In this document: piece by piece, positions 27,159-42,583 of the stretch
Position numbering within the stretch: position 1 is the first letter of the stretch
Layout of the letters: every line of letters starts with the position of its first letter
Source: [Clostridium] saccharolyticum WM1
Lineage (GTDB): Bacteria > Bacillota > Clostridia > Lachnospirales > Lachnospiraceae
Reading direction: 5' to 3'
Assembly: GCF_000144625.1 (NCBI RefSeq)
Contig: NC_014376.1
Coordinates: 1,488,001 to 1,552,000 of the forward strand
DNA length: 64,000 bases
The notes under the pieces: generated by a model
What the model was told of the DNA's origin: nothing
What the model saw: only the letters and a program-made list of their open reading frames with translations
The model's database searches: none
Position numbers and translations under genes: made by a program

Positions 27159-27938
27159 ATGTATGATTTAACAGTATTCGAACAGAATGGACAGCTTTTG
27201 ACGGATAGTAGAGAAGTAGCAGTAGCAGTAGATAAAGAACATTACGACTTGATTAAAAACATACGTCAATACATAGGATATCTTACTGACGGAGAATTCT
27301 CCGTCAGTGAATATTTCATTGAAAGTTCATACATAGATAGAACAGGGAGAGCATTACCATGTTTTCTCTGCACAAAGAAAGGTTGCGATATGATAGCCAA
27401 TAAGCTGCAGGGCAAAAAAGGTGTAATTTTCACGGCTCGGTACATAGAAGCTTTTGGAAAGATGAAGGAATTTATTGAAAAGGGTGTACAGTACAGTAAG
27501 CAAGTTTCTTTCAAGGAACAGGTGGAATGTATTGGGGTAGTAGCCGACATGCTCCGCGTAAATGAGGCCAGTAAGTTATTGATGATCGGACAATTATACA
27601 AAAGCTACGACCTTCCGGCAGAATTCCTTCCCCAATATGAGTTTAATGGTAACCGGGAGATGAAATCTGCAACTGATCTACTGAAACGGTACGGTTTAGG
27701 CATGTCAGCAAAGAACTTTAATCTTTTGCTTCTCGAATATGGCTATCTTGAAGAGAGAAGCCGTAAATCGACCTCTGCACCCGGAAAAGAGAAGAAATAC
27801 AAGGCCCTTACCGATAAAGGCTTAAAATATGGTGAGAATGCTGTAAGCCCACAGTGCCAGCGCGAGGTACAGCCTATGTATTATGCTGATTCGTTCAAAG
27901 AATTGTTTGATATAGTGGTTGGTCTGGTAGTAGTGTAA
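27159..27938 (+). CDS. Rha-type phage antirepressor with KilA-C-like C-terminus
   Basis: The 259-residue protein has an N-terminal Rha domain (LTDSREVAVAVDKEHYDLIK, RTGRALPCFLCTKKGCDMIA, ARYIEAFGKMKEFI). A C-terminal phage antirepressor-type winged helix follows (SATDLLKRYGLGMSAKNFN, YGYLEER). Rha proteins modulate the lytic/lysogenic choice. GAGAGGAGA precedes the ATG. Odd feature: a perfect 24-bp palindrome lies in the coding sequence (27285-27308) at residues 43-50. Confidence 0.85.
   Translation: MYDLTVFEQNGQLLTDSREVAVAVDKEHYDLIKNIRQYIGYLTDGEFSVSEYFIESSYIDRTGRALPCFLCTKKGCDMIANKLQGKKGVIFTARYIEAFGKMKEFIEKGVQYSKQVSFKEQVECIGVVADMLRVNEASKLLMIGQLYKSYDLPAEFLPQYEFNGNREMKSATDLLKRYGLGMSAKNFNLLLLEYGYLEERSRKSTSAPGKEKKYKALTDKGLKYGENAVSPQCQREVQPMYYADSFKELFDIVVGLVVV
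27285..27308. repeat. Perfect 24-bp palindrome inside the Rha gene
   Basis: ACTGACGGAGAA is followed directly by its exact reverse complement, with no spacer. It is much longer than expected by chance and lies in coding DNA, so it is a candidate operator or recombination site. Confidence 0.85.
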
Positions 27939-29276: not shown

Positions 29277-31022
29277 ATGAATAGTGGAAAAATCGAAAAT
29301 GAATTAAATTTAGCTTTAGACATTCCCGAACAAGAACGGATAAAAACCTATAATTTAGATGTAGGGTACTCAGCAATTACAAACACATGGGAATTAATTG
29401 TAAAATATAGTGGAGATATTAGTTTCATTGAAGATGATTATGGGATTTCTGTCGTGGAATTGTTAAATGGTTACGCAATTATTACAGCACCTGAAGAAAA
29501 AATTGATCAGTTATCAGAAATTGAACAGATTGAATTTATTGAAAAACCAAAACGAGTATATTTTGAAGTAAATCAGGGTAGAGCAGTTTCTTGTATTAAC
29601 CCGGTTCAGCTTGAAAATAGTTTTAATTTGTTAGGTAATGGTACACTTGTTGCCATCATTGATTCAGGAATTGATTATTCACATATTGATTTCCGTAACT
29701 TAGATGGCACAACAAGAATTGTAGCACTTTGGGACCAAACCAGACCAGGAAATCCACCATTAAATTATGATCAAGGTACTATATATACAAGAGAAATGAT
29801 CAACGAAGCTTTAGCACTTCCTATGCCGGTAAGAATGTCACTTGTTCCAAGCGTTGATTTGTCAGGTCATGGTACTCATGTGGCAGGAATTGCAGCAGGT
29901 AACGGCAGAGCAAGTAATGGCCTGTATCGTGGGGTAGCACCGTTAAGTGAATTGATTGTAGTAAAACTGGGGACTTCCATTGGAGACTCTTTTCCTAGAA
30001 CAACCCAACTGATGACTGGAATTGATTTTGCCATTCGTACTGCTATTTCGCTTAATAAGCCTCTGGCAATAAATCTTAGTTTCGGAAATAATTATGGTTC
30101 TCATACTGGTCGTACTTTATTAGAAACTTATATTAATGATGTTTCAAATCAAGGCAAAATCAATGTAGTAATTGGAACAGGTAATGAAGGCGTATCAGGA
30201 AATCATACACAGGGAATATTAAAAAATGGGGAAACCTCTATCATAGAGATATCAGTTAGTGAAGCTAACCCAACCTTCAGCTTACAAATTTGGAAAAACT
30301 ATTATGACAAGTTTGATATTACATTTATTTCACCAAGCGGATTAAGAGTAGGTCCGATTCCCAGGAGACTTGGTACTCAGCAATTTATTATGAATCAGAC
30401 AAAAATTCTACTTTATTATGGTGACCCAACTCCATTTAATGCGCAACAGGAAATCTATGTTGAATTTGTTCCTTTAAATTTATATGTTAATTCAGGTTTT
30501 TGGAAGTTAGAATTAACACCTCAAAAAATAGTAACGGGAGATTATGACATGTGGTTACCTACAGGTGGCACACTTGGCGCTGATACAAGATTTCTTGCTC
30601 CCTCTGTATTTACTACTTTAACCATACCCTCAACAGCTTACCGGGCAATTACGGTTGGTGCCTATGATGGATACACAGACAGCTATGCCCCATTTTCAGG
30701 CAGAGGATATACCCGGAATCTTGATATAAAACCAGATTTGGTTGCTCCGGGTGTTAATATTATGTCATGTTCTCCTGGAGGAGGTTATACAGCGCGTACC
30801 GGAACCTCTATGGCAACCCCCTTTGTAGCCGGAAGTGCAGCTTTACTTATGGAGTGGGGAATTGTAAGGAATAATGATCCATATTTATACGGGGAGAAAT
30901 TAAAGGCATATTTGATTGATGGTTGCCGTCCTTTACGAATTGAAAATATTTATCCTAACCGAACACTTGGTTATGGAGCTTTATGTCTGCAAAATACCTT
31001 TAATAATATTATTGTCACTTAA
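29277..31022 (+). CDS. Csp-like subtilase with intact catalytic triad
   Basis: An S8-family serine protease of 581 residues, with a retained prodomain (about 1-115), no signal peptide, and the triad D129 (IIDSGID), H198 (GHGTHVAG) and S511 (GTSMATP), with oxyanion N303 (GTGNEG). A roughly 130-residue beta-rich insertion (about 318-430) sits between oxyanion Asn and Ser, as in the jelly-roll domain of Csp germination proteases, which activate cortex-lytic pro-SleC. Length fits CspB. It lies convergent to a cortex-hydrolase-like gene. The ATG lacks a strong ribosome site. An unrelated intracellular role cannot be excluded. Confidence 0.82.
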   Translation: MNSGKIENELNLALDIPEQERIKTYNLDVGYSAITNTWELIVKYSGDISFIEDDYGISVVELLNGYAIITAPEEKIDQLSEIEQIEFIEKPKRVYFEVNQGRAVSCINPVQLENSFNLLGNGTLVAIIDSGIDYSHIDFRNLDGTTRIVALWDQTRPGNPPLNYDQGTIYTREMINEALALPMPVRMSLVPSVDLSGHGTHVAGIAAGNGRASNGLYRGVAPLSELIVVKLGTSIGDSFPRTTQLMTGIDFAIRTAISLNKPLAINLSFGNNYGSHTGRTLLETYINDVSNQGKINVVIGTGNEGVSGNHTQGILKNGETSIIEISVSEANPTFSLQIWKNYYDKFDITFISPSGLRVGPIPRRLGTQQFIMNQTKILLYYGDPTPFNAQQEIYVEFVPLNLYVNSGFWKLELTPQKIVTGDYDMWLPTGGTLGADTRFLAPSVFTTLTIPSTAYRAITVGAYDGYTDSYAPFSGRGYTRNLDIKPDLVAPGVNIMSCSPGGGYTARTGTSMATPFVAGSAALLMEWGIVRNNDPYLYGEKLKAYLIDGCRPLRIENIYPNRTLGYGALCLQNTFNNIIVT

Positions 31023-31055: not shown

Positions 31056-31085
31056 GTAAACCACCGGCTAAGCCGGTGGTTTTAC
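31056..31085. terminator. Bidirectional terminator between subtilase and GH18 genes
   Basis: GTAAAACCACCGGC-type stem: AAACCACCGGC-TAA-GCCGGTGGTTT is perfect with flanking A and T runs. It serves the two convergent genes and overlaps the stop of the minus-strand gene. Confidence 0.85.
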
Positions 31086-32368
31086 TCTGTCTTTTTAACC
31101 CGAAATATTGAACCAACAACATTCCACAAGCCTGGGAAAAATTTCATAATCTGCCATACCCCTCCCCCAATTAATCCATATTGTGGAATTAACCGTAATT
31201 TTTGATTCATACTTCTAACATCATCAAACCAGACAACGTGTTCTATATCATTATAATCAGTATAATAATAGTATGGGGATTGAGCAAGTTCATCAAACAA
31301 TATTGAAACATTAAATAAAGCAGCACGCTCGATTGCCTGCTGATTACTGATGGATTCTGCTTCTGTTGTACCTCTGACAAAAGGAAGCGGCCAGTCATAA
31401 GCATAGTTTGGTATACCCAATAATATCTTATCTGGATCAATTACTGAAATCCCATATTTCAAAACTCTCCTTACATTATTAATTGGAGCAGTAGCCATGG
31501 GAGGACCGAAAGTATATCCCCATTCATAGGTCATTAATAACACTTCATCAGCAACTGCACCTAGCGTAGCGTAATTATGAGCCTCATATAATAAACCTGT
31601 CATTGTTCCGGAGGTTTTTGGAGCCAAAGCAACAGTAGTAAGAAATCCTTCCTGAGATAATCGTGTATGAACCTTTTTGATAAAACTTAAAAATGCTTCT
31701 TTATCCTCAGGCAGAATAAATTCAAAATCGATATCCACACCTCGATACCCTTTTGCTCTTAAAGCAGCAACTAGATTTTCAATTAATTCGTTTTCACCAG
31801 CTTCGTTTTCAAACATTTCTGACGCCAGTTGGCTGTTGAATACTCCAGCTTCATTCATTGGAGCTAACACCATAATCGGCGATACTCCATATTCATTTGC
31901 TATCTGAATTAACTCCTCATCTTCAGTTGGTATTAAAATACCCTCTGGTGTAAAGCCATAATTAAAGATTAATAAGTTAGTTAAAAATGGTAATGTTTTT
32001 CTGAGCACTGTTCTGTCGATAAAAGTATACGCATATCCATTCATAATTACGTCATCAATCTTTTTCTCACCTTGAAAACGTATAATGATTACTTCTCCTG
32101 GTATAAGGTACCGAAGAATCGCTGTTGTTGGGTTGTTCTGCCATAATTGTGTAACTGTAACACCATAATTTGCCGCAATACTATTTAGAGTCTCTCCTTC
32201 TTTAACTATATGTATTAGTTCTGGTATCCTGATAGCAAGACTCTGTCCAACTACCAGATTCTCAGGGTTTGGTAACTCATTTTCACTTATAATTAAACTT
32301 GGGGATATTCCATATTGATTTGCAATGGATTGAAGAGTCTCGCCCGGCGTAACTACATGTATAATCAT
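31082..32368 (-). CDS. LysM-GH18 spore cortex hydrolase, SleL/YaaH-like
   Basis: The 428-residue protein has two N-terminal LysM domains (residues 2-48 and 51-97; TPGETLQSIANQYG, KEGETLNSIAANYG) and a GH18 domain with catalytic D212/D214/E216 in GVDIDFEFI. This layout is that of SleL/YaaH, spore N-acetylglucosaminidases that cut cortex fragments during germination. There is no signal peptide, as in Bacillus SleL. ATG 32368 starts directly at the first LysM; the 43 residues read upstream are AT-rich noise. It is divergent from the amidase gene 78 bases away. Confidence 0.88.
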   Translation of the reverse strand: MIIHVVTPGETLQSIANQYGISPSLIISENELPNPENLVVGQSLAIRIPELIHIVKEGETLNSIAANYGVTVTQLWQNNPTTAILRYLIPGEVIIIRFQGEKKIDDVIMNGYAYTFIDRTVLRKTLPFLTNLLIFNYGFTPEGILIPTEDEELIQIANEYGVSPIMVLAPMNEAGVFNSQLASEMFENEAGENELIENLVAALRAKGYRGVDIDFEFILPEDKEAFLSFIKKVHTRLSQEGFLTTVALAPKTSGTMTGLLYEAHNYATLGAVADEVLLMTYEWGYTFGPPMATAPINNVRRVLKYGISVIDPDKILLGIPNYAYDWPLPFVRGTTEAESISNQQAIERAALFNVSILFDELAQSPYYYYTDYNDIEHVVWFDDVRSMNQKLRLIPQYGLIGGGVWQIMKFFPGLWNVVGSIFRVKKTE

Positions 32369-32446
32369 AATTTTTCTAATCTTTTTTGTAACATTATATA
32401 AATATAATAATAAAATAGAATAAAAAGAATAAAAAGAGATTGATTT

Positions 32447-33025
32447 ATGGCAATAAAAATATTTATAGATCAAGGTCATAATCCAACGGGCTATCATAAT
32501 ACAGGAGCCAGAGGAATGGGTTTAATTGAAGAAAACATCACCTATCAGGTCGGTGTTTATCTAGCAAATCTATTAGAAAATGATCCGAGATTTGACGTTC
32601 GTTTATCAAGGCCGTTGCCTACAACGGTATTGGGGACAACGAATACTACCAGCCTTGCAGAACGGGTACGTTTGGCAAATGAATGGCCTGCAGATTATTT
32701 TATTAGCATACATGCGAATGCGAATGTAAATCCAGCGATTAACGGAGCAGAAATTTATGTACAGGAGTATTATACACAAGCTTATTGGCTGGCTGAACAG
32801 ATTATGGAATCTATTACAAACATTACCCCTTTAACTAACAATGGAATCTTTATAAATCCATCCTTATATGTATTAAGAAGAACAAATATGCCTGCTGTCT
32901 TAGTTGAAATGGGGTATGTAACTAACACATATGACGCAATGATATTACGTGATAACCAGTGGCAAATTGCGTATTCAATTTATTTGGGTATATTAGCTTA
33001 TTTCGGTCTTCAACCTTTATCATAA
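32447..33025 (+). CDS. N-acetylmuramoyl-L-alanine amidase, CwlD-like
   Basis: A 192-residue Amidase_3 zinc enzyme that removes the peptide from muramic acid. Zinc ligands H11 (DQGHN), E29 (GLIEEN) and H89 (SIHANAN) and catalytic E154 (VLVEMGY) are all present. It has no signal peptide or wall-binding domain. CwlD of similar size makes muramic-delta-lactam in the spore cortex, the mark recognised by cortex hydrolases such as SleL next door. Its AGAGATTG ribosome site is weak. Confidence 0.88.
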   Translation: MAIKIFIDQGHNPTGYHNTGARGMGLIEENITYQVGVYLANLLENDPRFDVRLSRPLPTTVLGTTNTTSLAERVRLANEWPADYFISIHANANVNPAINGAEIYVQEYYTQAYWLAEQIMESITNITPLTNNGIFINPSLYVLRRTNMPAVLVEMGYVTNTYDAMILRDNQWQIAYSIYLGILAYFGLQPLS

Positions 33026-33091: not shown

Positions 33092-34789
33092 CTAGGTACG
33101 GAGTTCTTCGAATACATTATATATATTTATCACTCCATACCCCCAGTCCCGATTTGGATACACTAGATTCTGACGTCTTATAGCTCCACGTATTAAATAA
33201 CTTTTAATTACTATTGTATCGACTCCTTCAATATTTTGTTTAAATACAGCCCATTCCATAAATAAGGCTGCCACCCCGGCTGCATGTGCAGCAGCTACTC
33301 CAGTACCTGTATAATTTATGAATAAGTTATTTAAGGAAGGTGCAATATAGTTCACACCGGGAGCAGCTAGTTCTGGTTTTACAACATCATCACTTGTATA
33401 TCCTCTGCTGGAATTTGGGTAAAGATTCCGGTTATAAGGATTATATGCTGTAATTGATAAGGGAACATATGCTGTACTTGGTGATAAGACGGTAGTATAA
33501 ATAACAGGCTGAATAAAAAATGTATTATTTGATATAAATTCTCCCATAGGCAGCCATATATTAAAACCTGCTTCTAAATCTCCTTGGGAGTATACATTGA
33601 ATTTCCATATTCCTGATGTTGCATTTTGAAAGCGGAAGAAGATTAATTGATCTCCAGTCAGTGTTTCTGATATCTGAAATTGTAAATTAATGATAGTAAT
33701 ATCAAACAGAAAATTAATTTCCCGGCTTAATCGAATTCCCGAAACAATTCGAGAAATATATTCCCCGCCTGGAGATTGAATATCCACTGAAAATAATCCG
33801 GGAAAATCACCCCAAAGCTCCATACAGAAATTCTTATCATTTTCACCAACATTTAATTCTACAGAAGTACTACCTGTCTGAGTACTGATTCTGGAGAAAA
33901 AATGCCGTCCAGAATTGCCTTCATTCCCGACTGCTACAACAACACATACGTTCGTATAATCCGCAACGATGGATAGGTAATTACCTAAATTAGACTGTCC
34001 GGCATGAGACGTTTGAGATGTTCCAAGTCCTAAGCAAATTACGATTGGTCTGTCTAATCGTCTTGCCATTTGTATACAATAATAAACTCCCCACATGATA
34101 TCATTTTCTTGAAAAGCAATAACATCCTCTTGAATTAAAAAAAGCTCTCTTATATATCTTTTTGCTTGTTTTAATCTGACAACGACTAATTCAGCATCTG
34201 GAGCAACGCCTCTAAAATTAATTTCCTGATTTTCATTTCCAACAGCTACCCCAGCCATCATTGTACCATGACCATTCGTGTCAATACTGGGAACGATATT
34301 TAAGGGTTCGTTGGATATGAGCGCAGCATTGATCATTTCAGAGGTATATTCCGTTCCGTAATTTGTAATAATTGGATATGTTGATTCACTTTGAATCGTC
34401 TGGTCCCATATGGATAAAATTTTAGTCTGCCCATTTTCTTTAATAAATATAGGATTTAAATAATCTATACCTGTATCGATGATTCCAATTAATACACCAT
34501 TTCCTGTTAAATCAAAACCAGGAAGATTTGTTAAATCCGTTACACCGGAAGATTCTACGCTGATTCTGCTAGTTAATCCATATATCTTTGGAATAAAGGA
34601 GTAACTATAGTTATTTAATAAGTTTTTTAATTCAGTGTTGAAAGGGACATGTACAACCGCATAGTATTCATTAATTATATTAACAACAGCATCTTCAAAA
34701 GTATCAAGAATAGCTCTATTGTTTCGGTAATCAATTATAAAATCTAAATAATCATCATTAATAATACGAGTTCTCTCTACTGGTGTCAT
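33092..34789 (-). CDS. Csp-like pseudoprotease (catalytic Ser replaced by Gly)
   Basis: The 565-residue protein matches the third subtilase over its full length, with prodomain, D105 (IIDTGID), H174 (GHGTMMAG), GNEG and the jelly-roll-type insertion (TSVELNVGEND ... FNIWLPMGEF). At the nucleophile site GTSMAxP is replaced by GTGVAAAH, so G497 stands for serine and proline is lost. It should be inactive, like CspC and CspA of C. difficile, which sense or relay germinant signals. AGGGGAAG precedes the ATG. It is the last gene of the three-gene minus-strand operon. Confidence 0.85.
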   Translation of the reverse strand: MTPVERTRIINDDYLDFIIDYRNNRAILDTFEDAVVNIINEYYAVVHVPFNTELKNLLNNYSYSFIPKIYGLTSRISVESSGVTDLTNLPGFDLTGNGVLIGIIDTGIDYLNPIFIKENGQTKILSIWDQTIQSESTYPIITNYGTEYTSEMINAALISNEPLNIVPSIDTNGHGTMMAGVAVGNENQEINFRGVAPDAELVVVRLKQAKRYIRELFLIQEDVIAFQENDIMWGVYYCIQMARRLDRPIVICLGLGTSQTSHAGQSNLGNYLSIVADYTNVCVVVAVGNEGNSGRHFFSRISTQTGSTSVELNVGENDKNFCMELWGDFPGLFSVDIQSPGGEYISRIVSGIRLSREINFLFDITIINLQFQISETLTGDQLIFFRFQNATSGIWKFNVYSQGDLEAGFNIWLPMGEFISNNTFFIQPVIYTTVLSPSTAYVPLSITAYNPYNRNLYPNSSRGYTSDDVVKPELAAPGVNYIAPSLNNLFINYTGTGVAAAHAAGVAALFMEWAVFKQNIEGVDTIVIKSYLIRGAIRRQNLVYPNRDWGYGVINIYNVFEELRT

Positions 34790-34815: not shown

Positions 34816-35688
34816 TTAAGATAATATTCGACTTGGTGTATATATATTAACAACAGTCACTCCAGTATTAATAAATTTCGGACCTGTATCAAATCCCCTT
34901 AATGCAGCAACTGACTCAGCCATACCCAAATAACCCATTGTATATGGATTTTGTACTAATGTTGCTTGTATAGTATTATCTCTTATCATTTCCTGAATCG
35001 TTTCAGTAATATCAAATCCAATGCCGATAATATTTGTATCATAATCTCTAAAAGCGTATCCCATCCCTAGCGTAGATCCTTCATTCGTTGAAAAAATACC
35101 AACAAGATTGGAATTGTCTTCTATATATTTTTCTGTTGCTTGTTTTGCTAACTCTGGGTCACCATTCGTATATATTGTTTCTAAAATTTGGTATCTGTCA
35201 AACGATTCAAAATAATCTCGAAACCCTATTTCACGATTTACAGTCGTTCTGTTTTCAGGTGTTACCCCAATGATTCCTATTGAGCCATTTGTGACACCAA
35301 TTGCCTCTAATTCGTAATACATATTTTCTCCAGCTATCTTACCAGCTGTATAATTATCTGTAGCTAAGGTTATGATAGCTTCTTCAAACGCTGGTGCATC
35401 AACATAAATAATTTTTACACCCTTTGCTTTCGCTTCTTCAACTGCTCCCGAAATCTTTAAAGGATCACTCGCCGCTAACATGATTGCATCTGCTCCTGCT
35501 GCAACGGCATTATTAAATATTTGAATCTGTTTATTTACATCTCTTTCTAGAGGGGCATCCCATTCATAAGTAACACCTAACATAGATGCCATTTCTCTGG
35601 CACCTTTATCCATAACCATCCAAAATTGATCTCTTTTATCCATGGTTATTAGATAAATTTTATAATTTTCATTCATTATATGGTTCAT
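34816..35688 (-). CDS. Type-1 sugar-binding protein without signal peptide
   Basis: The 290-residue protein is a complete ribose/galactose-type periplasmic binding fold: MDKRDQFWMVMDKGA (ligand-stacking F/W), DAIMLAASDP, NRTTVNREIGF (arginine), GIGFDIT and LVQNPYTMGYLG. It lacks both a signal peptide and a lipobox; the chain starts within the first strand. It is not linked to any ABC transporter genes. It lies between two Csp-like subtilases, 14 bases after one stop and 26 bases before the next start, with AAAGGAGAT ahead of its ATG. A soluble sugar sensor working with the Csp proteins is the natural inference. Confidence 0.85.
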   Translation of the reverse strand: MNHIMNENYKIYLITMDKRDQFWMVMDKGAREMASMLGVTYEWDAPLERDVNKQIQIFNNAVAAGADAIMLAASDPLKISGAVEEAKAKGVKIIYVDAPAFEEAIITLATDNYTAGKIAGENMYYELEAIGVTNGSIGIIGVTPENRTTVNREIGFRDYFESFDRYQILETIYTNGDPELAKQATEKYIEDNSNLVGIFSTNEGSTLGMGYAFRDYDTNIIGIGFDITETIQEMIRDNTIQATLVQNPYTMGYLGMAESVAALRGFDTGPKFINTGVTVVNIYTPSRILS

Positions 35689-35702: not shown

Positions 35703-37403
35703 TTAATAATTGATTCTTAATCGTAAACTATTTATTGCATTATATATATCTAAAATTCCATATCCCCATTCAGGATTTGGATATTTTATTGTTTCATCTC
35801 TTTTTGCACCTCTTAGTAAAAATTTTTTCAAATCAATTGTATTAAAAACAATATCCGATTTATTAGCCCATTCTAACAACATCGCAGCTACTCCTGCTGT
35901 ATGTGCAGCAGCTACACTTGTTCCTGAAAACTCTGTAAATGTTTGTTTTAATGTTGGTCCAATTACATTGACACCTGGCGCTGCAATTTCCGGCTTAACA
36001 ACGAGTGTTCTGGTATATCCTCGACTTGCATAAAGAAATATACTGTTATTAACATAATTATAAGCGGTAACAGTTAAAGGAATATTTGCATTTCCAGGAG
36101 ATAATACTGTTGTATTTATATCCGGATTAACAAAAAATGTATTTTCTGATATAAATTCATTCATTGGTAGCCATATATGAAATCCAGTTTCCAAATCTCC
36201 ACGTTTATATATATGAAATCTCCAGATTCCCGGTGCAGGTTCATTCATACGAAAAAAGATCACCTGATCACCCGTCTGTCTTTCTATCAGATTATTGATA
36301 ATATCAATAGTAGTTCTCTCGAAAATGAATGAAACCCGTGTACTGTTACTGATTGATGTAGTCATATTAGGAATAAACTCACCAGATGGAGAAGTTATAG
36401 CAACAGAATATATATTGGGGGATTTCCCCCACAATTCTAATACGAATCCTGTTTCATTTTCTCCAACCATAAGTTCCACTGTAGAAAATTCCTTATGATC
36501 TTCTATGATTCCAAAAAAATGTCTGCGTTCATTCCCTTCATTCCCTGCTGCAATAACTACTGCAATCCCAGGACTAGAACCAATCAGGGATAAAGTGTTA
36601 CTTAAGATCCCTCTACCGTCATGCCCCCCCTGGGATGTGCCTAAAGCTAGAAGAATTACCATAGGCCTTTCCAATTCAAATGCTGTTTCAACTAAAAACT
36701 CAATACCAAATAGAATATCAGTTTCTGAATAACAAACAGCCTCCTCTGGAATATTATAAAAATTTCTTAAATTTTGTTTTGCTTGCCGTAACTTTACAAT
36801 CACTAATTCTGAATCTGTTGCAATTCCATAAAAGTTACTTTCAGGTACAACATTACCAGCAGCAATTCCAGCAATCATTGTGCCATGACCATTTTCATCT
36901 TTACTAGGTACTATATCTAGAGGAATATCTGATGCCAGAGCACGATTGATGTCTTCTTTTGCATAAACGGTCCCATACGGAATCGTATCAAAAGTTTGTT
37001 CCTGATTTATAGTCTGATCCCAAAGTTGATTAATTCTTGATGTTCCATCCGCATTTTTAAAAATTGGATTTATATAATCGATTCCTGTATCTACAATTCC
37101 TATTAGTACGCCTTGTCCCCTCAGATTAAAATTTGGAACACTTCTAATCCTGGAAATACCTGTAGCTTCCAGACTTGCTTCACTGATAATACCAAAACAG
37201 TTTGGTAAAGCTGAATATCCAAAATCAGCTATAAAATCAATTGTTATGAGATTCGAAGGAATATGTACAACTGCATAAATATTATTGATAATTGTTCTTG
37301 AGTACACGGAGTATTTATTAAAAAATGACATATTACCACTATATTCAACAAGTAAGTCAAAAAAGTCATTATTTGTCATTTCACTTATTTTTAAGGGAGC
37401 CAT
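35703..37403 (-). CDS. Csp-like subtilase, triad intact (variant GTSVAAAH)
   Basis: This 566-residue S8 protein is the closest relative of the pseudoprotease downstream. Triad D105 (IVDTGID), H173 (GHGTMIAG) and S496 (SGTSVAAAH) is present, as is oxyanion Asn in AAGNEG. The usual proline after the serine motif is replaced by histidine. Prodomain about 1-92, beta-rich insertion about 305-415. It has no signal peptide. It is the first gene of the operon with the sugar-binding protein and the pseudoprotease; the ribosome site GGTGA is weak. Activity is plausible but uncertain. Confidence 0.83.
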   Translation of the reverse strand: MAPLKISEMTNNDFFDLLVEYSGNMSFFNKYSVYSRTIINNIYAVVHIPSNLITIDFIADFGYSALPNCFGIISEASLEATGISRIRSVPNFNLRGQGVLIGIVDTGIDYINPIFKNADGTSRINQLWDQTINQEQTFDTIPYGTVYAKEDINRALASDIPLDIVPSKDENGHGTMIAGIAAGNVVPESNFYGIATDSELVIVKLRQAKQNLRNFYNIPEEAVCYSETDILFGIEFLVETAFELERPMVILLALGTSQGGHDGRGILSNTLSLIGSSPGIAVVIAAGNEGNERRHFFGIIEDHKEFSTVELMVGENETGFVLELWGKSPNIYSVAITSPSGEFIPNMTTSISNSTRVSFIFERTTIDIINNLIERQTGDQVIFFRMNEPAPGIWRFHIYKRGDLETGFHIWLPMNEFISENTFFVNPDINTTVLSPGNANIPLTVTAYNYVNNSIFLYASRGYTRTLVVKPEIAAPGVNVIGPTLKQTFTEFSGTSVAAAHTAGVAAMLLEWANKSDIVFNTIDLKKFLLRGAKRDETIKYPNPEWGYGILDIYNAINSLRLRINY

Positions 37404-37525: not shown

Positions 37526-38806
37526 ATGAAAAGATATCTCAATCCTTTTGACATTTATGTTGAGCCAGATTTTTCCATAAGTGTATTCGCATCGGAGCTA
37601 AACAGTCCTGGAAGTATTCTGATTACTGATAATAATAAAATGTATATAACTGATACTGGCGAATTGACAGGTGAACCCAAATTATTATTATATGAAAATG
37701 GTAAATTCGAGTCTATAGCAGAAGGCTTTAATACTCCTATAACCGGCATTACATACAGATTTGGAAAAATATTTGTCTCACATAGAGGCTCTATAACAAT
37801 TGTAGATGAAAATGGAACCCAAAAAAACATTGTTCAAGGTTTGCCATGTCAAGGAGATTTTCCTAATAGTAATGTTACTTTTCGATCCGATAATCGTCTT
37901 TTTTTTGGAATTGGAACTGCTACAAACTCAGGGGTAGTTGGCCTGGATAATAAATGGGTAATAAACCATCCATATTTTCATGATAAACCAGGCGATAATA
38001 TCATTGTATTTGGTCAAAACTTTGAATCATATAATTATATTAATCATTCAAAAGAACCTGTTTTAACAGGAGCTTTTAGTTCCTTCGGTGAAATGAATTT
38101 TCCATACGAACAAAAAAAAGGAACTTTATTAGCGTCAGGAAGCATTCTTAGCTGTAATCCTGATGGCACGGATATTCAATTATATGCATGGGGATTCCGT
38201 AATATATCTTCATTAAATTTTGGTTATTATGATAGACTTTTTGCTTGCAATAATGGCTATGATGAACGAGGCAGCCGGCCAATTGCTAATGCTTCTGATG
38301 ATTTCTATCATGTCGAGCCTGGGGTATGGTATGGCTGGCCTGACTTTTCAGCAGGAATGCCAGTTACTTCACCAAAATTTGATACGATATATAATCAAAA
38401 AATAGAGCTTTTAATCTCAAATCCTCCTAACATCCCTCCCAGACCAATTACAACGTTTCCAAACGGAACAAATTTAAAAGGTTTTTTAGTAAACGAATAT
38501 CGTGAGTTTGGAAATATAGGAGATATTTTTATTACCGAATATGGTGGTACCACGATTAAGCAACAATACTATGGACGGAAAATCTCAAAAATTAATACCA
38601 TATCAGGAGAAACAACAACGTTTGCCATGAATAAGTCTGGCAATTCTTTATATTCAACTACAGGCGGATTCGGAAGACCCTCTGATTTGGCCTTCGATAC
38701 AGAAGGTGATTTATATGTAATAGATTCCGGCATAAATAACTTAAATAACTCCCATTGTTTATTATCAAATACGGGCGTAATTTGGAAGATTAGTCGAGAA
38801 AGGTGA
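37526..38806 (+). CDS. Sugar dehydrogenase-like beta-propeller protein
   Basis: The 426-residue protein resembles the PQQ-dependent glucose/sorbosone dehydrogenase fold: repeated blade motifs (GSILITDNNKMYITDTGE, SRPSDLAF-like GRPSDLAFDTEGDLYVID) and the segment AWGFRNISSLNFG with FACNNGYDERGSRPI. It has no signal peptide, unlike exported PQQ enzymes, so a cytosolic or spore-surface structural role is possible. It is divergent from the Csp operon and only one base from the rubrerythrin-like gene, probably an operon. Whether it binds a cofactor cannot be told. Confidence 0.7.
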   Translation: MKRYLNPFDIYVEPDFSISVFASELNSPGSILITDNNKMYITDTGELTGEPKLLLYENGKFESIAEGFNTPITGITYRFGKIFVSHRGSITIVDENGTQKNIVQGLPCQGDFPNSNVTFRSDNRLFFGIGTATNSGVVGLDNKWVINHPYFHDKPGDNIIVFGQNFESYNYINHSKEPVLTGAFSSFGEMNFPYEQKKGTLLASGSILSCNPDGTDIQLYAWGFRNISSLNFGYYDRLFACNNGYDERGSRPIANASDDFYHVEPGVWYGWPDFSAGMPVTSPKFDTIYNQKIELLISNPPNIPPRPITTFPNGTNLKGFLVNEYREFGNIGDIFITEYGGTTIKQQYYGRKISKINTISGETTTFAMNKSGNSLYSTTGGFGRPSDLAFDTEGDLYVIDSGINNLNNSHCLLSNTGVIWKISRER

Positions 38807-38807
38807 T

Positions 38808-39353
38808 ATGATGAGCTTTATAGAAAGTGATACATATAAGAATTTAGTTATGTTATATGAAAAAGAGTTAATGTTTAGTGCACGATATGAATTATATAGC
38901 CTGATTGCAAGAAGTGATGGTTTTATTGAATATGCAAACATTTACGATTCTTTCGCAAGGCAAGATCGTGAACATGCTCGCATATGGTTGAGAAACTTAA
39001 GTCAGGGAAATTTACCTGGAACGGCAGAAACTTTGATTGAATCAGCGAAAGCTGAAAACAATTTGGCTAGTATTGAGTATCAAAATGCTATTCAGGTAGC
39101 TCGGCAAGAAGGTTACAATGAAATTGTCTCATTAATGGCTGGAATTGCAAACATAAATTTTAATCATGAATTAGTATTTCAACAGATGTATAATAACATT
39201 ATATTAAATCAGGTTTACTGTAAACCAAACGAAATTTTGTGGACCTGTATACAATGTGGAAACATTATGTCAGGTCTTTGTGCTCCTGAGATTTGTCCTG
39301 TCTGCGGATTTCCTCAAGGTTATTATCGCCCTCTTAACGATTGTATCTATTAA
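38808..39353 (+). CDS. Rubrerythrin-like protein with degenerate iron site
   Basis: The 181-residue protein has a four-helix ferritin-like part (ARYELYSLIARSDGF, FARQDREHARIW; AENNLASIEYQNAI, ANINFNHELVF) and a C-terminal rubredoxin-type knuckle CIQCGNIM ... CPVCGFPQGYY. By eye several diiron ligands are changed: the first-helix Glu is missing, ExxH is DREH in one half and NFNH in the other. It may be a spore-coat-like or non-catalytic relative. The second ATG (38811) is an equal start choice. AGAAAGGTGAT precedes it. Confidence 0.72.
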   Translation: MMSFIESDTYKNLVMLYEKELMFSARYELYSLIARSDGFIEYANIYDSFARQDREHARIWLRNLSQGNLPGTAETLIESAKAENNLASIEYQNAIQVARQEGYNEIVSLMAGIANINFNHELVFQQMYNNIILNQVYCKPNEILWTCIQCGNIMSGLCAPEICPVCGFPQGYYRPLNDCIY

Positions 39354-40249: not shown

Positions 40250-40543
40250 ACCACCCGCTATGCGGGTGCGAGTCAGTAAGTTATACAAAAAATCACCTTT
40301 CCGATTATAATAGAGGTGTCCAAGCCACTATTAGAGAAAGGAAAGGTGATTTCAATGGCGAAGAAAGCCAATGAACTGGCACACACGAAATGGATGTGCA
40401 AATATCATATCGTCTTCACACCTAAGTATAGACGAAAAGTAATTTATAATCAATACAAGGAAGATTTGAGAGAAGTCTTGAAGCAACTATGTAATTATAA
40501 GGGGGTCCAAATCTTAGAAGGCCATATTATGCCGGATCATGTA
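40250..40543 (+). mobile_element. Left end and 5' part of an IS200/IS605-type element
   Basis: The hairpin CCACCCGC-TATG-CGGGTG marks the left end, followed by the leader and the first 63 codons of TnpA. The element breaks off inside tnpA and joins GH78 coding DNA. The right end is not seen. It is a deletion scar. Confidence 0.8.
40355..40543 (+). pseudogene. tnpA: Truncated IS200-type TnpA transposase
   Basis: MAKKANELAHTKWMCKYHIV, FTPKYRRKVIYNQYKEDLRE and LEGHIMPDHV are the unmistakable N-terminal half of a Y1 (HUH) transposase. The sequence stops at the first histidine of the HUH motif (MPDHVH), so the second His and the catalytic tyrosine are lost. The frame reads on by chance through foreign sequence to a stop at 40681. 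GAAAGGTGAT lies ahead of ATG 40355. Confidence 0.85.
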
Positions 40544-40548
40544 CGTGA

Positions 40549-42583
40549 AACGGAAGCAGATGTGTTATTCAAACAGATGAGACTTGGAAAGCGTCAGATT
40601 CAGTTATTTTGGATGCTTCGATCTATAATGGGGAAACCAGGGACGATAGCAAAAATCCATCGGTTCGGACATCTTGTATAAAACAGGAGGTAACATACAG
40701 GTTGGTTCCTGAAAATACATCCGTCAATTTTTGTCTCTCCCAAAGGAGAGCAGATTCTTGATTTTGGGCAGAATATGGTGGGTTTTTGTAAATTCATCTG
40801 CCGTGAAGAAAGAGGCGGGCAAATACATCTTCAATATGGGGAAGTACTGCAGCAGGAATGCTTTTATAATGGCAATTACAGGTCGGCAAAGGCGGAATAT
40901 AACTATACATCAGATGGGTGTATAAAAGAAGTGGAGCCATTCTTTACATTCTATGGTTTTCGTTATGTAAAGGTTTCTGGTATAAGCAAGATTGACCCAA
41001 AGGATTTTACCGGAGTGGTTTTGTATTCTGACCTTCAACAAACCTTGCAGGTAAGTACGGATCATGTAAAATTAAACCGGTTGATGCAAAATTCCTTATG
41101 GGGACAGAGGGGAAATTTTATTGATATACCAACGGACTGTCCCCAACGGGATGAGCGACTTGGCTGGACGGCAGATGCCCAGGTTTTTGTGAATACTGCC
41201 TGCTATCATATGGACTGTTACAGCTTTTATAAGAAATATCTGAATGACTTGCGCTATGATCAAAAGGTTCATTACGAAGGTGATATCCCAATGTATTCTC
41301 CCTCCTTAAAAAAAGCGGCTGGCAGTGGCGGGGCAGTATGGGCAGATGCGGGAACCATAATTCCGTGGAATTTATATCAGGCCTATGGAGATAAAAGGCT
41401 GCTTGATGAAAATTATAGTATGATGAAGGAATATACGGATACGGTAATTACGGTAGATAAAAAAGACGGAAACCATCATATTATAACATCAGGATTTACC
41501 TACGGGGACTGGCTGGCACAGGATGGAGTATGTCCCCAGGCTTTGTTAGGAGGAACCGATGAAAATTTTATTAAAAGTATCTACTATAAAAACAGTCTGG
41601 ATTTAACGGCTAAGGCAGCCAAAGTATTACGTAAAAAGGAAGATGAGAGATACTACTCATCACTTTCAAATCAAGTAAGAAAGGCAATTCTCAGAGAATA
41701 CTTTACACCGGTTGGCAAACTGGCTGTTGATACACAGACAGCATATGTTCTCTCACTTTATTATCAGGTTTTTATTGATAAAAACAAGGTAATTGAAGGC
41801 TTGAAGGCCAGATTGAAGAAAGATCTCTACAGAATTAAGAGTGGTTTTACCGGAACCCCTCTGATGCTGCCGGTGCTGTTTGAAAATGGTATGGATGAGG
41901 AAGCCTACCGGATACTTTTTAATGAAGAATTTCCGGGCTGGCTCTATGCTGTGAATCTTGGCGCAACGACGATATGGGAGAGGTGGAATTCCATGCTGCC
42001 GGATGGAAGGGTGAATGGAATAAACATGAATTCTTTCAATCATTATGCATATGGTTCCGTATGTGAAGCAATCTATAAATATATAGCTGGTCTAAAGTTT
42101 ACGAAGGCCGGATGTAAGTGCGCCCTCATCGCTCCAAAGCTGAATTATAGGCTAAAGCACATGAAGTTAGCCTTTGAATCTCCATTAGGTACGTATCAAA
42201 TTGAATGGTTCATTCAAGAAGACGGAGTCTTCCAAATGGATGTCATGATACCTTATGGAGCAACAGCCAAGGTCATTCTGCCTAACCATAAGGACAAAAG
42301 GATAGATGAGTTAACTTCAGGAGAATATCATTATTGTTATATGCCGGTCATAGATTATCATCATCCATTCAGTGAATCCTCGATAGTACTTGATCTCCTT
42401 AGCAATAAGGAGGCAAACCGAGTTTTCCGTGAAAGACTGCCAAGAATATATGCTATGGTAACCGGAGAAGATGAAGAGTTTCTAGCGATGGACCTAATTG
42501 CTTTTGGTTATCATAAAATGTTTGGAACATCTTTGGACGAAATAGCAGAAGCAGGAAAAGCATTAAGAGTAATTAAGGTTTAA
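40549..42583 (+). pseudogene. GH78 alpha-L-rhamnosidase, 5'-truncated and frameshifted
   Basis: From 40549 one frame reads NGSRCVIQTDETWKASDSVI and on to VPENTSVNF. A run of five T (40728-40732) then has one base too many, and the following frame SPKGEQILDFGQNMVG carries the rest. The catalytic region is complete: TDCPQRDERLGWTADAQ, the WADAGTIIPW barrel and GATTIWERWNSM. About 200-250 N-terminal residues are missing, replaced by the IS fragment. The enzyme class removes terminal rhamnose from plant glycosides or polysaccharides. An internal restart at ATG 40775 (602 residues) could still make the barrel, but this is doubtful. The single-T shift might be a sequencing error. Confidence 0.82.

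Follow-up and report, generated by a model that had tools for sequence, protein, structure and literature searches.

This locus raises the question of why the gene of a sugar-binding protein should lie between the genes of two Csp-family subtilases. The DNA analysed here (the window) is a stretch of 64,000 nucleotides from [Clostridium] saccharolyticum WM1. Three consecutive genes on its minus strand encode a Csp-family subtilase with a complete catalytic triad D-H-S (Csp_ca, 35703..37403; first in the run), a type-1 sugar-binding protein of 290 amino acids (PBP, 34816..35688), and a Csp-family pseudoprotease whose triad reads D-H-G after a change of Ser to Gly (Csp_ps, 33092..34789). The original observation of a complete type-1 binding protein without a signal, separated from its two subtilase neighbours of the Csp family by 14 and 26 bases, was confirmed: PBP lacks a signal peptide and presents neither a membrane anchor nor a lipobox. 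Because it is surrounded by germination genes and has neither export signal nor transporter, PBP is a candidate spore sensor. On the sequence evidence, we tentatively put forward, as a reasonable possibility, that PBP is a sugar sensor made by the mother cell, deposited in the spore and able to feed the Csp-SleC cascade.

The structural model of PBP (pLDDT 94) presents a complete, two-lobed type-1 sugar-binding fold, and its Peripla_BP_4 domain is full-length. The polar residues of the pocket, whose positions we take to be equivalent to those of RbsB, are also conserved as expected for this family. R152, D226 and Q246 are invariant in 43/43 relatives, and D97, W23 and N202 are found in 42, 41 and 39 of them, respectively; in the ten rows of the genus clade that were inspected, D97, R152, N202, D226 and Q246 were all invariant. 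PBP is thus a member of Peripla_BP_4. It does not qualify as an ABC substrate-binding protein, since it has neither an export signal or lipobox nor an adjacent transporter: no permease or ATPase gene adjoins it among the nine proteins encoded between 27.2 and 39.4 kb.

These properties bear on the idea that PBP is a transport component serving an ABC transporter encoded elsewhere, which we consider very unlikely. The idea draws on the lipoprotein relatives, whose genes follow those of an ABC ATPase and permease in all six of the seven lipoprotein rows that were inspected (by eye), the window genome's own 48% paralogue being one of them. However, the signal peptide is absent from PBP in the window and in 16 genus orthologs, and a tree of 57 relatives separates 46 anchored or signal-less rows, PBP among them, from 11 exported rows with full support (100/100). 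Among those of the 46 loci whose gene lists were read, no sugar ABC operon preceded PBP. Well-supported branches of the tree force at least three changes involving signal-less forms, and repeated loss of the anchor would be the simplest reading. One row labelled as signal-less (L025) has a start broken by Ns, with an anchor readable just upstream.

Two further observations were made within this clade. Tandem arrays of anchored binding proteins are found in Herbinix and related MAGs, with four in a row in L028 and two each in L030, L037 and L041. In L018:5303-10849, a signal-less member of the clade lies directly behind genes resembling those of fucose isomerase, aldolase, mutarotase and kinase (by eye), a hint that this branch may bind a fucose-like ligand.

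The two flanking proteins were assigned to the Csp family on different grounds. Csp_ps has the central insertion of Csps, and its residues 76-564 align to 9pr8, 9t7m, 6mw4 and other Csp structures along their length, whereas Csp_ca was assigned from its matches to the NCBIfam models CspBA and CspC only. These are narrow exception models, and neither protein reaches their cut-offs of 1250 and 675 bits, with scores of 337 and 268 for 33092-34789 and of 305 and 286 for 35703-37403. Csp_ps is the only pseudoprotease of the two. The same Ser-to-Gly change is reported for CspC of C. difficile. D-H-G triads were found in 8/29 Csp proteins examined, two of the eight being near copies: Csp_ps itself, L101:13697-15400, L106:8022-9737, L108:8813-10528, L110:7810-9624, L111:8600-10309, and one each in L090 and L091. 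In Lachnospiraceae, these Ser-to-Gly proteins mostly lie beside a Csp with a complete triad. Judged from their aligned triads, the eight proteins run against statements in passages of two papers, in which the Csps of Lachnospiraceae have complete triads or are predicted to be active (PMC6636752; PMC12880746). The two papers may still be right about the canonical genes, since most of the D-H-G proteins are extra paralogues and not clear orthologs of CspA or CspC. Ser-to-Gly Csp pseudoproteases therefore occur beyond Peptostreptococcaceae, and pseudoprotease-based control of germination may be wider than printed.

Several neighbouring genes also point to spores. An accessory CspB with a CspB prodomain and a complete triad is encoded on the plus strand (29277..31022), 2 kb from Csp_ps; a second CspB of the genome (G000:C1:2360423-2362111) is 56% identical to it. 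Between this gene and the three-gene run lie a LysM-GH18 protein on the minus strand (31082..32497), with a probable internal start near MIIHVV (by eye), and an Amidase_3 protein on the plus strand (32447..33025), of which another copy elsewhere in the genome shows 66% identity; both are without signal peptide. On the other side, an NHL/GSDH-like beta-propeller protein (NHL, 37526..38806) is divergent from Csp_ca and is followed by a rubrerythrin (38808..39353), both on the plus strand. SleC is encoded about 107 kb from the start of the window. The presence of second copies of CspB and the amidase elsewhere is as expected if the set is accessory. Mobile elements were also seen around the cluster: a prophage at about 3400-24000, with terminase, portal, tail, baseplate and endolysin-like genes (by eye), a phage_pRha protein after it, beside the cluster (27159-27938), and at the other edge an IS200-type-transposase-like fragment (40316-40681; by eye), behind which lies a 5'-truncated rhamnosidase-like ORF (by eye).

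A parallel came from G289, a genome from another genus of the same family. A 20-kb stretch of this genome presents PBP (64%, likewise without anchor), Csp_ca (63%) and Csp_ps (65%, also D-H-G) in a rearranged order, with the NHL homologue split into two ORFs between the two Csps. The same stretch encodes CspB (78%), the amidase (81%), a LysM-GH18 protein (31%), a DDE transposase, a CotJC fragment, CotJB and CotJA (CotJ calls by Pfam), a full CotJC-type Mn catalase, and SleC (match to PDB 9h68, E 9.3e-126). CspB and SleC are therefore linked within 20 kb, as in a Csp-SleC locus. The Anaerocolumna MAG L016 encodes a membrane-anchored PBP (59%) followed by a single Csp; this Csp is 59% identical to Csp_ps and has a complete triad. 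The linkage in G289 and L016 places PBP in an accessory germination locus. The original claim of a germination locus is upheld by G289, where PBP, Csp_ca, Csp_ps and NHL share a 20-kb stretch with SleC, CspB and CotJA/B/C, and by the Anaerocolumna MAG.

In a scan of the family, 26/397 genomes matched PBP at E 1e-60 or better, and among the matches listed (at most three candidates per genome) PBP adjoined a Csp in G289 and the window genome only; others are possible. G289 is the only one of four genomes of its genus with PBP, which was absent at E 1e-60 from the other three (completeness 93, 91 and 76%). Eleven other Csp loci of Lachnospiraceae (L103-L113), chosen as high-scoring Csp matches, included nine with a Csp pair and no PBP. 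Since the tandem Csp pair is widespread without PBP, PBP appears to be the addition. One of the eleven loci (L112:8091-12449, from G106) encodes a Csp_ca homologue (61%), CotJB/CotJA-like ORFs (by eye), a rubrerythrin and a protein similar to G289 SleC, with no PBP.

The same neighbourhoods allow for a spore or mother-cell protein that is no germinant sensor and that binds or buffers a sugar or a cell-wall fragment in the mother cell or coat; its place near the Csps would then reflect the clustering of spore genes. The surroundings do include genes for CotJ, rubrerythrin, amidase and GH18 proteins, and PBP persists where the Csp pair is missing (see below). Nevertheless, a position between two Csp genes of one run at such short spacing, and next to a Csp in G289 and L016 as well, speaks for a closer tie to the Csps, and we regard a non-sensor role as rather doubtful.

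Within the genus, a search of 25 genomes at E 1e-60 gave matches to PBP in 21, the window genome included. Orthologs with 78-89% identity were found in 17 of the 24 other genomes; G018 has one at 53%, G017 and G019 only an exported 47% paralogue, and G001, G009, G010 and G011 no match. Close homologues of Csp_ca and Csp_ps were absent in intact form from all 17 ortholog stretches examined, two of which (L089, L095) have one flank shortened by a contig end. Conservation of the gene order, whose lack had been named at the outset as a refutation, thus held only in part: in G289, in rearranged form, and partly in L016, while an intact pair was unseen in the stretches of 17/17 genus orthologs. The original interpretation is accordingly partly supported. 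Remnants were nevertheless frequent. Csp_ca fragments were found by tblastn in five stretches (L086, L087, L088, L090 and L091) and by alignment in L083, L084 and L092, so that at least eight carry csp remnants, and Csp_ps remnants follow PBP in several stretches. In G022 (L091) and G023 (L090), a Csp from a different subfamily lies 3 to 4.5 kb away, and its triad likewise reads D-H-G. The csp and NHL remnants around PBP show that the ancestor of these loci in the genus had the Csp-linked form.

There are signs that the PBP gene has passed from one species to another. In a first subgroup (8 genomes, 28 pairs), median identity at four-fold sites was 91% for PBP vs 43% for a core gene, and PBP exceeded the core gene in 28/28 pairs; in a second subgroup (7 genomes, 21 pairs), the values were 79% and 65%, with PBP higher in 18/21. 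The yardstick is thin, as it consists of one core gene, a GerA-family ORF. Several species share no more than a stretch that surrounds PBP from about -340 to +270, in contexts that are unrelated; non-coding remnants are 85-95% identical between such species, in line with the four-fold result. Such mobility would suit a vegetative cytosolic sugar sensor carried on a small cassette, for which the Csp neighbourhood of the window would be incidental, and whose decayed flanks recur in unrelated contexts with the four-fold excess just described. A same-strand TetR-ABC operon also follows PBP after a gap in six of the eight loci L092-L099 (L095 is cut by a contig end and L099 is different). We nonetheless judge this explanation to be unlikely: what remains in the flanks comes from these same NHL and csp genes, which indicates descent from a Csp-linked form, the linkage recurs in another genus (G289), and the TetR-ABC operon seems to have a lipoprotein of its own (by eye).

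The PBP frame has remained open despite the loss of the pair. No stop was found in 16 orthologs, whereas about 21 were expected without selection, given a tree length of 0.76 substitutions per site (G023, which is nearly identical to G022, was left out of the 17). The median dN/dS was 0.26 over 136 pairs, about 0.2-0.3 in pairs with the window and 0.22 (median) in the second subgroup; the ten closest (lowest-dS) pairs of Csp-less orthologs gave 0.55-1.55. Together, the open frame and the raised dN/dS of close pairs suggest that selection acts, perhaps more weakly without the Csps. By these substitution patterns, PBP is under purifying selection without neighbouring Csps. It is scarcely credible, therefore, that PBP is a non-functional leftover of an exported binding protein: loss of the anchor and the raised dN/dS in some close pairs would fit decay, but the absence of stops next to csp and NHL pieces that decayed in the same loci, along with the unchanged pocket, refutes this for the genus as a whole. 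An open frame and an unchanged pocket without the pair mean that PBP is selected on its own and is not an obligate partner of this Csp pair. Where it persists alone, PBP may pass its signal to other Csps, which are present in all the genomes, or may have another role in the spore or the cell.

We searched for sigma-E-like promoters with our own weights, based on what we take to be the sigma-E consensus, and compared scores with those of 324 control genes. A single site between 29 and 39.6 kb exceeded the 99th percentile of controls. This site (38179..38207, minus strand; ATATATT, 14 nt, CATATAAT) is antisense inside NHL and points at the Csp_ca-PBP-Csp_ps run, 0.8 kb upstream and within another gene; within 250 bases of Csp_ca, and hence of the operon, no site exceeded the control 90th percentile. 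Sites above the 99th percentile were found upstream of 7/16 genus orthologs, a looser motif in 15/16 and an exact 17-mer upstream of PBP in 10/17; the 17-mer also occurs elsewhere in G012, G014, G015 and G021 and is thus not unique to PBP. The CATATAAT block upstream of PBP in relatives was considered as an independent promoter and rejected, since it is homologous to the antisense piece of NHL. Because the site of the relatives is an NHL remnant, its conservation may reflect descent rather than function, and a sigma-E-like site for the PBP run is a weak lead.

The germination background of the genus was also characterized. All 25 genomes present one GerA gene (PF03323; split in G024), and in the window genome it has no recognisable GerB or GerC neighbours (by eye). 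Csp-like proteins number 7-14 per genome (4 in G009, which is 67% complete), and SleC was found in 25/25 genomes, in two pieces in G016 and G020. A single GerA gene with many Csps and SleC fits Csp-driven germination. The Csps of C. difficile are not known to carry an export signal. The predicted label of a 'cytosolic' PBP is doubtful: Csps too lack export signals, yet they reach the spore integument, and the mother cell can likewise deposit a PBP without signal beside them. The integument, upstream of SleC, is where Csps act according to a passage of PMC8617281.

In our favoured reading of a spore-deposited sensor, the PBP gene would be part of an accessory, mobile spore-germination locus. 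The mother cell would make PBP under sigma E, probably together with the Csp pair, and PBP would join the Csps in the spore integument, which would explain its missing export signal. Its cleft would take a sugar or sugar-like ligand, and closure of the two lobes would be the signal, as described for XylFII-LytS in part of PMC9769921. A Csp, either the adjoining pseudoprotease or another Csp of the cell, would read this closure, leading to activation of CspB and to cortex breakdown driven by SleC. The sequence shows the fold of PBP, its conserved pocket, its missing signal, the gene neighbourhood and purifying selection where the Csps are gone; the timing of PBP in sporulation, its place in the spore, its ligand binding and its contact with a Csp are what we infer here. 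XylFII-LytS counts in favour as a precedent for a binding protein that senses without transport; against our reading count the absence of an intact pair from all genus stretches examined and the lack of PBP in nine of the eleven other Csp loci. A more specific version is possible but doubtful on the same genomic evidence: PBP would be a soluble receptor whose germinant is a sugar or nucleoside. Derived from a transport protein by loss of its anchor, it would gate the Csp pair and so SleC, travel from species to species as a cassette and be able to couple to other Csps of its host. If true, a soluble receptor would give a nutrient input to Lachnospiraceae with a single GerA-type gene. The locus of PBP with a Csp protease and pseudoprotease offers a single soluble protein that is accessible to measurement of its ligand, of its place in the spore and of what it does to germination.

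Whether germinants bind directly to CspC:CspA was still a question in 2026 according to a passage of PMC12880746. Our literature search, which covered few subscription papers, found no binding protein tied to a Csp locus and GerA-type receptors only. Like the Csp-SleC systems of Clostridioides difficile and Clostridium perfringens, the present system comprises a CspB with prodomain, a Ser-to-Gly pseudoprotease and SleC; unlike there, the csp genes are separate and a sugar-binding protein lies between two of them. Among GerA-type receptors, the N-terminal domain of GerK3A resembles substrate-binding proteins, as stated in parts of PMC8617281 and PMC13170314, but that domain lies within a membrane protein and has another connectivity, whereas PBP is a free soluble protein. 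CUT2-type binding proteins (RbsB, AraP and kin) have fold, Pfam family and pocket residues in common with PBP, which differs in lacking a signal peptide and lipobox, in a cluster devoid of transporter genes and in a clade of its own. Finally, XylFII-LytS resembles the present case in its type-1 sugar-binding fold and in a gene outside a transporter operon, and XylFII structures are among the fold matches of PBP; XylFII partners a histidine kinase and does so outside the membrane, as described in part of PMC9769921, whereas PBP has neither an export signal nor an adjoining kinase gene.
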